From: Gammaproteobacteria bacterium
GTDB taxonomy: Bacteria; Pseudomonadota; Gammaproteobacteria; Pseudomonadales; Pseudohongiellaceae
Direction of reading: 5' to 3'
Length of the DNA: 64,000 nt
NCBI GenBank assembly: GCA_002711845.1
Contig: PASF01000002.1
Span: forward strand, 472,224-536,223
Shown: positions 39,818 to 43,639 of the stretch, in pieces
Layout: each line of letters starts with the position of its first letter
Numbering within the stretch: position 1 is the first letter of the stretch
Position numbers and translations under genes: made by a program
The notes under the pieces: generated by a model
Databases searched by the model: none
Seen by the model: the letters and a program-made list of their open reading frames with translations, nothing else
Told to the model about the DNA's origin: nothing

Positions 39818-40264
39818 CTACTGCAGTTTGACGAAGCGGGCCTGCTGGTTGCGCACCAGCGTACAGACGACATGATAATCCGGTTGACAGGACATCGACC
39901 TGACAATGGCTGTCTCCGGAGTGGTCAGTTGCACCATTACCTGTGCCACCACGCCCTGGTAGCGCACTTCCACAGTGCCGCTGCTGCCATTGATCATGCC
40001 TTCACCTGCCTGCCATTCGATACCGGCGGGGCGCAAGGGCTCCAATCGGAAATTAGCCCCCGACGGCAATACCAGCAAAGAAAAATCGGTATTCTCTGCC
40101 TGCCACTCACCGTGCCAGGTAGCGGGGTCCGTGAGCTCGTCAGCCCCGGCGTGGGTGCTCAGTGTGGCGACCAGCGTCAGTGCAGCCCACAGGCCGGGCA
40201 TACATGGGCCGGCGGCTCGCTGTGGCGCCATAGAGATCAGTGCCAGTAATCCGGAATCGGTCAT
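39818..40264 (-). CDS. Hypothetical secreted protein
   Basis: 148 residues. A hydrophobic segment (GLWAALTLVATLSTHAGA) looks like a signal peptide, followed by a beta-rich domain (TWHGEWQAENTDFSLLVLPSG, GTVEVRYQGVVAQVMVQLTT) with two Cys in the C-terminal part (SMSCQPDYHVVCTL) that could form a disulfide. I do not recognise a family. It is convergent with the ClpP gene, and a strong minus-strand terminator lies 117 bases upstream of its start, which separates it from transcription coming from the oxyR region. Confidence 0.55.
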   Translation of the reverse strand: MTDSGLLALISMAPQRAAGPCMPGLWAALTLVATLSTHAGADELTDPATWHGEWQAENTDFSLLVLPSGANFRLEPLRPAGIEWQAGEGMINGSSGTVEVRYQGVVAQVMVQLTTPETAIVRSMSCQPDYHVVCTLVRNQQARFVKLQ

Positions 40265-40380
40265 GATGGTCTGTTACCTGTCGCAATTGGCCGATGGAGG
40301 CCGGAGTATAACAGCTATTTCCGCAGATGCTAAAAGGGCGCACGACGGCTGTCGTTCGGCGCCTCATGGGCATTCAGTGC

Positions 40381-40418
40381 AAAAAAAAGCCGGGATGATC
40401 TTTGGGGATCATCCCGGC
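40381..40418 (-). terminator. Strong intrinsic terminator on the minus strand, upstream of oxyR
   Basis: GCCGGGATGATC (40389-40400) and GATCATCCCGGC (40407-40418) form a perfect 12-bp stem with a 6-base loop. Eight consecutive A at 40381-40388 give a U8 tail for minus-strand transcripts. On the plus strand no T-run follows. It therefore ends a transcript coming from the oxyR side, where no minus-strand gene is present. Confidence 0.88.
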
Positions 40419-40550
40419 CAAGAGGGAGCGTACAATCAGAATTCGTACACCAGTCAAAACCTACCTTCCTGCGAGCGGTGACAACGCGTCATGGTTCACA
40501 ATGCAAGCAATGATAGGGCAGTGGGGTGAATAGATAAAATGCATTAAATG
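40381..40550 (-). ncRNA. Candidate small RNA divergent from oxyR (OxyS-like position)
   Basis: The minus-strand terminator at 40381-40418 needs a transcript, and the roughly 200 bases between it and the oxyR start contain no credible protein gene on that strand. TTGTAT followed after 18 bases by TTATAC (minus strand, about 40564-40593) could be its promoter, giving an RNA of about 150-170 bases. In E. coli the sRNA OxyS is transcribed divergently from oxyR in exactly this way. I see no sequence similarity to OxyS that I could defend, so the claim rests on position, terminator and the absence of an ORF. The 5' end is approximate. Confidence 0.4.
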
Positions 40551-40576
40551 TATTAAAGTGATATGTATAATGTATC
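40543..40576 (+). promoter_or_regulatory. Candidate oxyR promoter with overlapping dyad
   Basis: A perfect TATAAT at 40566-40571 with ATTAAA 17 bases upstream (40543-40548) would start transcription about 50 bases before oxyR. GATA and TATC half-sites at 40560-40576 (9-base spacer) form a dyad over the -10. E. coli OxyR represses its own promoter by binding over it, and its sites contain ATAG/CTAT half-sites, so autoregulation is plausible. Confidence 0.5.
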
Positions 40577-40626
40577 GATAAACGGCGCATACAACTCTTG
40601 TCACTCAGTCGTTCCGGGGAGTCGCA

Positions 40627-41529
40627 ATGAACCATCTACCCACTACCAAGCAACTGCGATACTTTGTTGCGCTGGAGCAGTACGAACATTTTGGCAAGGC
40701 TGCGGAGTCCTGTTTTGTCTCCCAGCCAGCGTTCAGTGTTGCCATTAAAGAGCTGGAGAATATGCTCAATATCCAGCTGGTTGATCGCACCAACAAGAAC
40801 GTCACAGTGACCAGCCTGGGCCGTGATATTGCCCGGCAGGCGCGCGTCGTGCTGCGCGATCTGGAAGACATGGTGGATATTGCCCGTGGCAATCAGGCTC
40901 CCCTGACTGGCCAGTTGAAATTGGGGGTGATCCCCACCATCGCGCCGTTTTTGTTGCCCAAGCTGTTGCCGGCGCTGCGTAAATCCTACCCCGAGCTGAA
41001 GCTGTATCTGAAGGAGGATCTCACCGACCGTGTCTATGAGCGCCTGATGGACGGTGAGCTGGATCTCATTTTGATTGCTCTGCCCTACGAATTGCGCAAT
41101 GTCACGGATATGCCCCTGTTTGATGACCATTTTTTTCTGGCACATCACGAGGACAGTGCCTTTGTCGATCCGGCACGCTACAACATGAACGCATTGCCCA
41201 CTGACAGCATTCTGTTACTGGAGGATGGCCACTGTCTGCGTGACCATGCGCTGTCTGCCTGTAATATCAAGAACGCCGACAAGGTCAGTAGTATTACCGC
41301 CACCAGTTTGCTGACCCTGGTACAGATGGTGGATGCGGACCTGGGTATCACCTATTTGCCAGACATGGCGGTGAAGTCGCCGCTGCTGAAAAATACCCGG
41401 ATAAAAACCATCGCCATGGATGACAGCAGTTACCGCCAGATCGGCCTGGTGTGGCGTAAGGCCAGCACACGGCGAGATGAATTTGAATTGCTGGGTAATT
41501 TCATCAAGCAGCATTATCAGGCGGATTGA
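40627..41529 (+). CDS. oxyR: Hydrogen-peroxide-sensing LysR regulator OxyR
   Basis: 300 residues. N-terminal HTH (KQLRYFVALEQYEHFGKAAESCFVSQPAFSVAIKELENML). The redox signature GHCLRDHALSAC carries Cys203 and Cys212, spaced 9 residues apart as are Cys199 and Cys208 of E. coli OxyR. The surrounding LLLEDGHCLRD and ATSLLTLVQMVDADLGITYLP match OxyR rather than general LysR proteins. Peroxide oxidises the pair to a disulfide and activates antioxidant genes (katG, ahpC, dps, and oxyS in enteric bacteria). A minus-strand terminator and probable sRNA lie upstream, and the copper monooxygenase gene follows after 115 bases. Confidence 0.93.
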   Translation: MNHLPTTKQLRYFVALEQYEHFGKAAESCFVSQPAFSVAIKELENMLNIQLVDRTNKNVTVTSLGRDIARQARVVLRDLEDMVDIARGNQAPLTGQLKLGVIPTIAPFLLPKLLPALRKSYPELKLYLKEDLTDRVYERLMDGELDLILIALPYELRNVTDMPLFDDHFFLAHHEDSAFVDPARYNMNALPTDSILLLEDGHCLRDHALSACNIKNADKVSSITATSLLTLVQMVDADLGITYLPDMAVKSPLLKNTRIKTIAMDDSSYRQIGLVWRKASTRRDEFELLGNFIKQHYQAD

Positions 41530-41644: not shown

Positions 41645-43639
41645 ATGAGCATTATACCGAGTAGCATCAAAGCCCTGGCAGCCATTGCCAACAGGGTCAT
41701 GGGCGCGCCGCTGGCATGGGTGGCGGTTCTGTCGGTGAGCCTGATGGGTACTGCCGTCGCCAATGATGCCGCGTCTGCTGACGCGGTGACCGTACGTGCC
41801 TCTGACTTCACGCTGATCGATCAGCATGGCAAGGCCTTCAATCTGCACTACCATGAACAGGTGCCGGCCATTGTGCTGATGGGACATCGGAACGGCTCTG
41901 CGGCCGTGGATGCCGTCGTCGACGGACTCAGCGAACAGTGGGCAGCGCAGGGTGTGGTGTTTGCCATGCTGAATCCGGCGCCCACGGAATCGCGGGCCGA
42001 CATTCTGGCTGATACACAACAGCAGGGCCTGGCCCTGCCGGTATTAAAGGATGAAGCAGGTCTGGTCACTGAAACACTGGCGTTGCACCACGTCGCCGAG
42101 GCGCTGGTGATTGAGCCAGGTCGCTGGCAGATTGTGTATCGCGGCCCCGCTGACAGCCCGGCATTCACGTCGACCCTGCAAGCCTTGCTGGATGAGGAAC
42201 CGGTCGAAGCAATGGTGCAGGCGATGCCTGCTGATGCCGAACCCCTGCCGCGCCGAACCGCCATCGCGGACATCCCGGAGACGATGTATCGCGACACCAT
42301 TGCGCCCATGCTCGTCGAGAAGTGTGCAGATTGCCACCGTACCGGGGGTATCGGGCCGTGGGCAATGACCAGCCATGCCATGATTCAGGGGTTCTCGCCG
42401 ATGATCCGCGAAACCGTCCTGACCAAACGTATGCCACCGTGGCATGCAGACCCGGAGATCGGTGAATTTCTGCACGACCTGAGCCTGAGTGTTGATGAGG
42501 CCAGGCAGCTGGTGTCGTGGATTGACGCCGGCGCACCGCGCGGTGCAGGTAACGATCCGCTGACTTCGGTGGCCGCGCAGGACACACAGTGGGAGCTGGG
42601 GGAGCCGGATCTGGTGGTGACCTTGCCGGCATTTGACATTCCGGCCACCGGCACCCTTGACTACCAGTTCTTTGAAGTGAAAAACCCGCTGGATCATGAC
42701 GTGTGGGTGCGTGCCGTGCAGATTGCGCCAGGGGACAGGCAGGTTGTGCACCACGCCATCGCCACCTTTGGCGACAGCTCCAATACGGCAGGCCAGTCTG
42801 ATAGCGGCGAATCCCTGTTCCAGCCGCAGCTGATGACATTCGTGCCTGGCAATGAGACCTATATTTATCCCGACAATACCGGCGTCTACATACCGGCAGG
42901 CACGTCGTTCTATACGCAGATGCACTATACCACCTATGGCAAGGCAACCAGCGATCAGACCCAGATAGGGCTGTACTTCAGCGACGAAGCACCGGAACAT
43001 GTCCTGCAGCACTTTTCGATCCTGAATCCTGAGTTGAGCATCCCTCAGGGCGTGGCTGAACACGAGGAAACTGCGTATTACCAGTTCCAGCGCGATGCTG
43101 TGATCTACAGTCTGTTCCCGCATGCGCACTACCGTGGGCGCGCGTCCGAGTTTGCCATCCGCTACCCTGATGGGCGCGAGGAAGTCGTGTTGTCGGTGCC
43201 CAACTATGATTTTAACTGGCAGCGTTATTTCCAGTTTCAGGAGCCGATCGACGCACCCGCGGGTACGTTTGTAATCCACCGGACCGTGTATGACAATTCG
43301 ACTGCCAATCTGAGCAACCCTGACCCCAGCGTCAATGTCAGGTTTGGCGAGCAGACCTGGGAAGAAATGCTCTATGGTGGCATCTCCTTCCGTTATGCAG
43401 AGCCCGGTGAGAACGACTTCGAAGTCAATGAAGATGACTACCTGGCAGCGCTGGCCATGGGTTTCATGGATGTGAACATCGACGGCAAAGTGTCGCTGGA
43501 TGAAATGCCGGAGCGATCAAGGCAGGCCCTGGCTCTGCCATTCACCATCATGGATCGCAACAAGACCATGGGCCTGGAGTTCCATGAATTCCGTGAATTC
43601 ATGGTGCAGAGCAACATGCTCAGTCGCGATGCTTTCTGA
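41645..43639 (+). CDS. Multidomain secreted protein: Trx fold, heme c, PHM/DBM-type copper monooxygenase, EF-hands
   Basis: 664 residues. After a signal or anchor segment (AWVAVLSVSLMGTAVA) comes a thioredoxin-fold domain (about 45-180) with no cysteine at all. A c-type heme motif C227-A-D-C230-H231 follows, with RTGGIGPWAM and KRMPPWHAD. The copper-type II ascorbate-dependent monooxygenase part has all six ligands in PHM order: His369-His370 and His427 for one copper, His493-x-His495 and Met575 for the other. At the C-terminus a canonical EF-hand (DVNIDGKVSLDE) and a second degenerate one (DRNKTMGLEFHE) occur. Eukaryotic relatives hydroxylate peptide glycines or dopamine; the bacterial substrate is unknown. 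The heme domain could supply the electrons that ascorbate gives in animals (inference). Confidence 0.82.
   Translation: MSIIPSSIKALAAIANRVMGAPLAWVAVLSVSLMGTAVANDAASADAVTVRASDFTLIDQHGKAFNLHYHEQVPAIVLMGHRNGSAAVDAVVDGLSEQWAAQGVVFAMLNPAPTESRADILADTQQQGLALPVLKDEAGLVTETLALHHVAEALVIEPGRWQIVYRGPADSPAFTSTLQALLDEEPVEAMVQAMPADAEPLPRRTAIADIPETMYRDTIAPMLVEKCADCHRTGGIGPWAMTSHAMIQGFSPMIRETVLTKRMPPWHADPEIGEFLHDLSLSVDEARQLVSWIDAGAPRGAGNDPLTSVAAQDTQWELGEPDLVVTLPAFDIPATGTLDYQFFEVKNPLDHDVWVRAVQIAPGDRQVVHHAIATFGDSSNTAGQSDSGESLFQPQLMTFVPGNETYIYPDNTGVYIPAGTSFYTQMHYTTYGKATSDQTQIGLYFSDEAPEHVLQHFSILNPELSIPQGVAEHEETAYYQFQRDAVIYSLFPHAHYRGRASEFAIRYPDGREEVVLSVPNYDFNWQRYFQFQEPIDAPAGTFVIHRTVYDNSTANLSNPDPSVNVRFGEQTWEEMLYGGISFRYAEPGENDFEVNEDDYLAALAMGFMDVNIDGKVSLDEMPERSRQALALPFTIMDRNKTMGLEFHEFREFMVQSNMLSRDAF

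Follow-up and report, generated by a model that had tools for sequence, protein, structure and literature searches.

The interval upstream of oxyR in the window (the whole 64-kb stretch of DNA analysed here, from the Pseudohongiella genome G000) is, in our judgement, quite probably a small-RNA gene that is activated by OxyR, is transcribed away from oxyR into an RNA of approximately 122 nt and has replaced an enzyme-coding payload, which would make it an independent analogue of OxyS, the best-known peroxide-induced RNA. Several of its components can be read directly from the DNA: an intrinsic terminator, conservation of the operator and of the -10 element, covariation within the terminator hairpin, the lack of a start-and-frame common to the family, and a different payload at the same site in relatives. 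The predicted unit and its neighbours, in window coordinates, are as follows.

39818..40264, minus strand: gene for a 148-aa protein, downstream of the unit and not counted in it; no family match, own promoter-like site.
40381..40502, minus strand: predicted small RNA, approximately 122 nt, with its start placed 7 nt past the -10 element and its end at the T-run.
40381..40419, minus strand: intrinsic terminator with 12 perfect pairs, loop CCCAAA and T8, recognised from the sequence and from compensatory changes.
40420..40427, minus strand: conserved C-rich motif UCCCUCUU, directly 5' of the hairpin, from alignments A1 and A3; a candidate seed.
40464..40470, minus strand: conserved AGGAAGG motif, also from alignments A1 and A3.
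40510..40515, minus strand: predicted -10 element TATCAT of the small-RNA promoter, assigned from its position relative to the operator and its conservation.
40530..40544, no strand assigned: OxyR inverted repeat IR3, ATGCATTTTATCTAT, 6/8, centred at -35 from the predicted start.
40539..40553, no strand assigned: OxyR inverted repeat IR2, ATACATTTAATGCAT, 5/8, centred at -44 from the predicted start.
40561..40575, no strand assigned: OxyR inverted repeat IR1, ATACATTATACATAT, 6/8, centred at -66 from the predicted start.
40566..40571, plus strand: perfect TATAAT, from its sequence the probable -10 of oxyR, within the OxyR operator.
40627..41529, plus strand: oxyR, 300 aa, with redox cysteines C203 and C212, identified by NCBIfam, a solved-structure match and the cysteines.

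The best NCBIfam match of the oxyR product is OxyR (PRK11151), at 243.6 bits, which is under the cut-off of 329 for that family, and the protein matches the solved OxyR structure 7l4s with E 3.2e-68. Its redox pair, C203 and C212, is nine residues apart as in the C199/C208 type, and such a pair is present in all 28 clade loci tested. Second OxyR-type copies, with 43-44% identity, are encoded in three genomes (G007, G009 and G012). The gene directly downstream of oxyR in the window (41645-43639, plus strand) encodes a protein of 664 aa that matches neither a Pfam nor an NCBIfam family at E <=0.001.

The minus strand at 40419-40381 reads GCCGGGATGATC-CCCAAA-GATCATCCCGGC-T8, which bears out the perfect 12-bp stem and U8 tail reported in the first-pass annotation, as well as the distance given there, with approximately 208 bases between the terminator and the start codon of oxyR; a terminator scanner reports the same hairpin as 13 pairs (40419-40388). 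By a strict criterion (a perfect stem of at least 8 pairs followed by at least seven T), this hairpin is the sole such terminator in the 64-kb window, and none arises in 60 dinucleotide shuffles of the window. At a lax scanner threshold, four terminator-like sites are found between 38000 and 43000, which is no more common than in shuffles (mean 4.0, sd 2.4). Paired double changes affect 7 of 12 hairpin pairs among 13 sequences of Pseudohongiella (genus g1) and the sister genus g7, and 5 of 11 pairs among 12 sequences of the other sister genus, g5. The hairpin covariation score lies above slid controls and is reached by none of 500 shuffles in both alignments, with the scored structure taken from one sequence per set, a bias in its favour. 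The bare count of double-change pairs is reached by 82 of 500 shuffles in the g1 and g7 set and by 8 of 500 in the g5 set. In the former set, 474 of 500 shuffles also attain the observed number of pair types. Six RNAs folded individually gave z-scores from -1.4 to -3.8. A GC-rich hairpin, a T-run and compensatory changes, the hallmarks of an intrinsically terminated small RNA gene, are all present. Since covariation alone would suit any terminator, it is the conserved parts upstream of the hairpin that argue for an RNA gene.

These parts were compared among close relatives. A protein search of 137 genomes of the family found OxyR at E <=1e-60 in 107, and the close orthologue set comprises 29 OxyR loci with 77-100% identity: 14 from g1, 14 from g5 and one from g7. 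The g4 paralogue L065 is excluded from the 29, and the G003 locus (L049) from alignment A3. The order of operator, -10-like element, variable leader, C-rich motif, hairpin and T-run is kept in 26 of the 29 loci, across three genera; this is the synteny and covariance comparison of related oxyR upstream regions that the first-pass annotation had proposed, and together with an operator spaced like that of oxyS it supports the possible small RNA divergent from oxyR suggested there. The unit is lost in G010 (L045), G070 and G071 (L057 and L058), where the hairpin is missing or degraded and the operator is retained. G003 is counted among the 26, yet its hairpin is weak (-8.7 kcal/mol) and a canonical -10 is lacking; it is grouped with the cases of loss or decay in which the operator persists. 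Among four close species, invariant columns make up 89% of the operator, 88% of the C-rich block, 69% of the terminator and 42-58% of the leader, as compared to 30% of the spacer with the -10, 23% of the oxyR leader and 20% of the stretch just beyond the terminator. The C-rich motif beside the hairpin is UCCCUCUU in most g1 loci and in g7 and of the GGCCCUU type in most g5 loci. The AGGAAGG motif is variable, being missing in G012 and altered in several g5 sequences.

The start of the small RNA was set 7 nt past the -10, that is at 40502, a predicted and not a mapped position; the 5' end near 40550 given in the first-pass annotation is revised accordingly, 40502 being the likely site. In 21 of 26 loci, a -10-like hexamer is found 14-15 nt past the operator; three more (L036-L038) have it at 14 nt once these are re-anchored. 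Among the same 26, a canonical -10 at this spacing was not located in G012, which has a weak one, or in G003, which has none. The -35 of the small-RNA promoter is poor, and the promoter is absent from a generic promoter scan of the window sequence. Activator-dependent promoters are commonly missed by such scans. It had also been held that only a transcript from the region of the oxyR promoter could use the terminator. This is too strong a claim from one sequence, because antisense transcription that begins within oxyR could arrive there as well; a dedicated promoter is nevertheless likely, because the operator and the -10 are conserved in relatives.

The operator, 46 columns with an AT content of 78%, carries three repeats of the OxyR type. 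When the pattern ATAG-n7-CTAT was scored at 125 offsets over 26 loci, IR2, IR1 and IR3 ranked as the top three, with mean scores of 5.77, 5.54 and 5.42 of 8, against 4.81 for the fourth offset and an overall mean of 2.2. Summed, the three repeats score 16.7, compared to 7.6 (sd 1.8) under permutation of the operator columns, a value reached in none of 2000 permutations. The repeat centres in the window lie 66, 44 and 35 nt upstream of the predicted small-RNA start, which had been fixed before the comparison with published positions. Section 9 of PMC5002191 gives -66, -44 and -35 as the positions of the three repeats in E. coli oxyR-oxyS; relative to the predicted start, ATAG-n7-CTAT repeats thus occupy the same three positions here, as expected of an OxyR-activated divergent promoter. 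It is from this operator geometry that we infer OxyR activation and peroxide induction of the predicted RNA. The repeats also overlie the perfect TATAAT of oxyR, and the location of this element inside the operator would fit the OxyR autorepression described in PMC5002191.

The wider OxyR regulon cannot be used as support, since the operator has no second copy in the window genome at up to three mismatches. Similarly, the full four-half-site OxyR pattern with three mismatches gives 3+3 matches in the window genome, fewer than the 8+8 of a reversed control, and so cannot define a regulon. Among dps promoters of 20 loci, 15 of them from Pseudohongiella, none resembles the oxyR operator; best four-half-site scores, of a possible 16, are 8-10 at the 15 dps promoters of the genus versus 9-13 at the unit-bearing oxyR operators, where some of the best matches are out of register.

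The payload of the divergent promoter was then compared in 26 distant OxyR loci, obtained from a scan of named genomes (nine loci) and from 369 surveyed genomes of the class, 18 of which, the window genome included, encode OxyR at E <=1e-95; the weak partial match L083 was excluded. A hairpin of -10 kcal/mol or better followed by T5 within 450 nt was found in none of the 26. When T4 was accepted for the nine loci L074-L082, a hairpin was obtained in L075 alone, at a place inside its enzyme gene. A divergent gene for a peroxiredoxin-glutaredoxin fusion within the 1.5 kb read is present in 17 of the 26 loci: within 180 nt in eight, behind a full dps gene in five, behind a dps remnant in one (L075), at approximately 400 nt behind another short gene in two (L123 and L125), and at 1 kb in L120. 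Neither dps nor a peroxiredoxin-glutaredoxin gene was found over the same 1.5 kb in the remaining nine. These payload calls were checked against one Dps and one peroxiredoxin-glutaredoxin protein with confirmed Pfam domains. Apparent remnants of dps precede the peroxiredoxin-glutaredoxin gene both in L075 and, by eye, in L082, which belongs to the group within 180 nt, and are possible intermediate states of payload loss. A further kind of payload at a divergent site of the oxyR type is seen in g4, where the gene for a regulator of the OxyR type at locus L065 (48% identity, cysteine pair present) is divergent from a gene that by eye is rubrerythrin-like.

Of the 17 distant peroxiredoxin-glutaredoxin loci, 10 contain a CCATTT block whose downstream spacing is the same, as does none of the nine without this gene. 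Repeat scores in the distant loci, of 8, are 4-7 for IR2, 3-5 for IR1 where it is readable and 1-4 for IR3. The promoter match to distant relatives is thus good over the CCATTT block and weaker in IR3. No match to the fusion gene was found at E <=1e-40 in the 15 Pseudohongiella genomes or in one g5 and one g7 genome, and dps is found elsewhere in all 15. In the window genome, contigs C6 and C14, both outside the window, give two equal-score dps matches and two identical 17-mer matches at corresponding places; the spacings of 15.1 and 14.7 kb suggest that approximately 15 kb is duplicated or was assembled redundantly.

A tree was built from 55 OxyR proteins, with no enterobacterial OxyR among them and with L064 omitted for its broken oxyR match, and was rooted on a single g4 paralogue. 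The g1, g5 and g7 loci form one clade in it (28 of 28 leaves, clade support 0.963). This RNA-bearing clade appears nested among the distant lineages, and its nearest neighbour, L130, carries the enzyme. Most simply, a single payload exchange would have been followed by two separate losses. On balance, we lean towards the view that the payload of the OxyR promoter was switched once, in the ancestor of Pseudohongiella and the two sister genera, from one or more peroxide-defence enzymes to a regulatory RNA while the operator was kept, so that an OxyS-like RNA evolved twice. The RNA would have arisen under an inherited OxyR promoter and taken the place of the peroxiredoxin-glutaredoxin gene, with or without dps.

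The first-pass annotation had offered two alternatives, a distant homologue of OxyS and an independent analogue. The former would be a true, highly diverged homologue of enterobacterial OxyS, inherited together with oxyR, and we give it a slender chance: its position and operator geometry agree with those of oxyS, but Rfam returns no match for the whole window at gathering scores, OxyS included, and a search of 40270-40640 with E up to 10 recovers matches far under gathering scores, none of them to OxyS. Furthermore, several of the OxyR lineages that surround the RNA clade in the tree have the peroxiredoxin-glutaredoxin gene or dps at the site, and the 603 potential OxyS homologues reported from the search in PMC5793797 sit in the enterobacterial clade. 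The independent analogue is favoured because the lack of an Rfam OxyS match is joined by a derived, single-origin place in the OxyR tree, one drawn without enterobacterial OxyR. When 390 genomes of the order were searched with a covariance model of the RNA, 48 had a match at E <=0.1; among 30 loci examined, seven were the Pseudohongiella unit. In the other 23 (L091-L113; ORFs were listed for 13), no OxyR gene was found in the stretch covered, and they are treated as unrelated terminators.

The earlier statement that no minus-strand protein gene lies between the terminator and oxyR holds for the window, where the ORFs measure 27, 47 and 48 aa. Where the 47- and 48-aa frames resemble relatives, they do so mainly within the operator DNA, and stops break these frames in several loci. 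A highly improbable reading takes the 27-aa frame as the mark of a small protein of approximately 21-40 aa, with AGGAAGG as its ribosome-binding site and a UUG or AUG start. The frame has a TTG start 7 nt past AGGAAGG in the window, similar started frames exist in G013, G011, G006, G004 and G002, and an alignable stop-free frame covers motif and hairpin over at least half its length in 8 of 14 g1 loci (G000, G011, G013, G006, G014, G002, G004 and G001), a start following the motif in all of these except G001 and G014, that is in six. However, the start codon and its distance from AGGAAGG vary, the frame ends after two codons in G001 and after one in G014, and those of G003 and G008 contain internal stops; the spacing from AGGAAGG to the seed, 18-44 nt, varies by lengths not divisible by three. 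In g5, none of the four motif-bearing loci has a start after the motif within the tested range, the motif was not found by script in the other eight, and open frames are common only to close sisters (by eye). The residues that are shared can be explained by the conserved DNA of motif and hairpin. A conserved start and frame, as a small protein gene should have, are thus not found across the family, although part of g1 may encode a peptide.

The hairpin might instead be an attenuator or leader end of the minus-strand gene at 39818-40264, relieved under some signal, for which we see an equally poor prospect. That gene does lie downstream on the same strand; its 148-aa product matches no Pfam or NCBIfam family, and a similar short protein (with a W-x-GEW-type motif, by eye) is encoded downstream in 10 of 13 unit-bearing g1 loci and in g7. 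Against an attenuator, a promoter-like TTAGCA-17-TATACT sequence lies beyond the terminator (40333-40305), with a counterpart at a similar place in relatives by eye, a generic scan finding three such sites against 3.1 in shuffles and hence no excess. Moreover, the downstream gene is a different one, by eye, in 11 of 12 g5 loci that have the unit; in the remaining four loci the longest downstream frame found by script was uninformative. Because the unit persists while its neighbour changes, it is unlikely to be the attenuator of this gene. Least probable of all is a mere boundary element that ends antisense or read-through transcription from oxyR and makes no functional RNA: the terminator would stop any transcript arriving from the right, but a bare terminator has no need of a conserved -10-like element, C-rich motif and leader parts.

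If the interval is an OxyR-activated small-RNA gene, its product may act on mRNAs. Hfq is found in 14 of 15 Pseudohongiella genomes, including that of the window, and UCCCUCUU is complementary to purine-rich ribosome-binding sites, a complementarity that suggests repression of translation. The sequence AAGAGGGA located 5-9 nt before an ATG is hardly commoner than its control in the 15 genomes (38 versus 28 occurrences). Among 30 AAGAGGGA sites examined, those that recur, by eye, precede a gene for a small membrane protein (G013 and G004, and G005 with a short frame) and two genes common to G007 and G009, which are near sisters. One of the two genes, efflux-adaptor-like, recurs in G008; this recurrence is too weak to claim these genes as targets. 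The oxyR mRNA is not supported as a target of the predicted RNA: with its leader from -45 to +3 and mononucleotide shuffles, and 23 of the 26 RNAs (L044, L046 and L049 omitted), a median of 75 of 200 shuffles pair as well, the three lowest values being 7, 11 and 20.

We propose that oxidised OxyR would bind the three inverted repeats (40530-40575) beside the -35, thereby activating the minus-strand promoter and covering that of oxyR. RNA polymerase would start near 40502 and stop at the terminator at 40381, yielding the RNA of approximately 122 nt. This RNA would probably act in trans through its C-rich motif, presumably with Hfq, and may pair with ribosome-binding sites of peroxide-stress mRNAs.

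If this is true, a second, separately evolved RNA is encoded at an oxyR-divergent promoter, and the architecture is a recurring solution. It would also be a natural case of an enzyme gene swapped for a regulatory RNA under one fixed promoter, with the immediate output of OxyR shifted from enzyme to RNA while the operator stayed. Because the neighbour of oxyR is the enzyme gene in some relatives and the RNA in others, the effect of the payload on the peroxide response can be tested by comparison.

Several known systems share parts of this arrangement. Among the matches listed in a literature search of titles and abstracts, with mostly open-access coverage and no bioRxiv, no paper described a small RNA divergent from oxyR outside the enterobacteria. 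OsiR and OsiA of Deinococcus, NfiS of Pseudomonas stutzeri and PrrF of Pseudomonas are small RNAs with a link to peroxide or oxidative stress, but none of them is placed divergent from oxyR, as judged from titles and abstracts. GcvA and GcvB provide another example of a self-repressing LysR-type regulator that activates a divergent small RNA (PMC5002191), whereas the regulator, the signal and the RNA all differ. In the pgdX-oxyR region of H. influenzae, as described in PMC3511568, oxyR shares its intergenic region with a divergent gene under OxyR control. The payload there is a peroxiredoxin-glutaredoxin enzyme, the same type of fusion as in many of the distant relatives studied here, in contrast to Pseudohongiella, which has the predicted RNA instead. 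The closest parallel is OxyS of E. coli and other enterobacteria, first described in 1997 by Altuvia et al. (cited in PMC7967276). Both RNAs are divergent from oxyR, with repeats at -66, -44 and -35 (PMC5002191) and an OxyR that has the redox cysteine pair, and their lengths are similar (109 nt for OxyS according to PMC5793797, compared to the predicted 122 nt or so). A member of the OxyS family would also be expected to bind Hfq and to pair with fhlA or nusG. The predicted RNA does not match the OxyS covariance model, and on present evidence its origin is different; it is therefore not classed as OxyS, which it probably resembles as an RNA output of OxyR.
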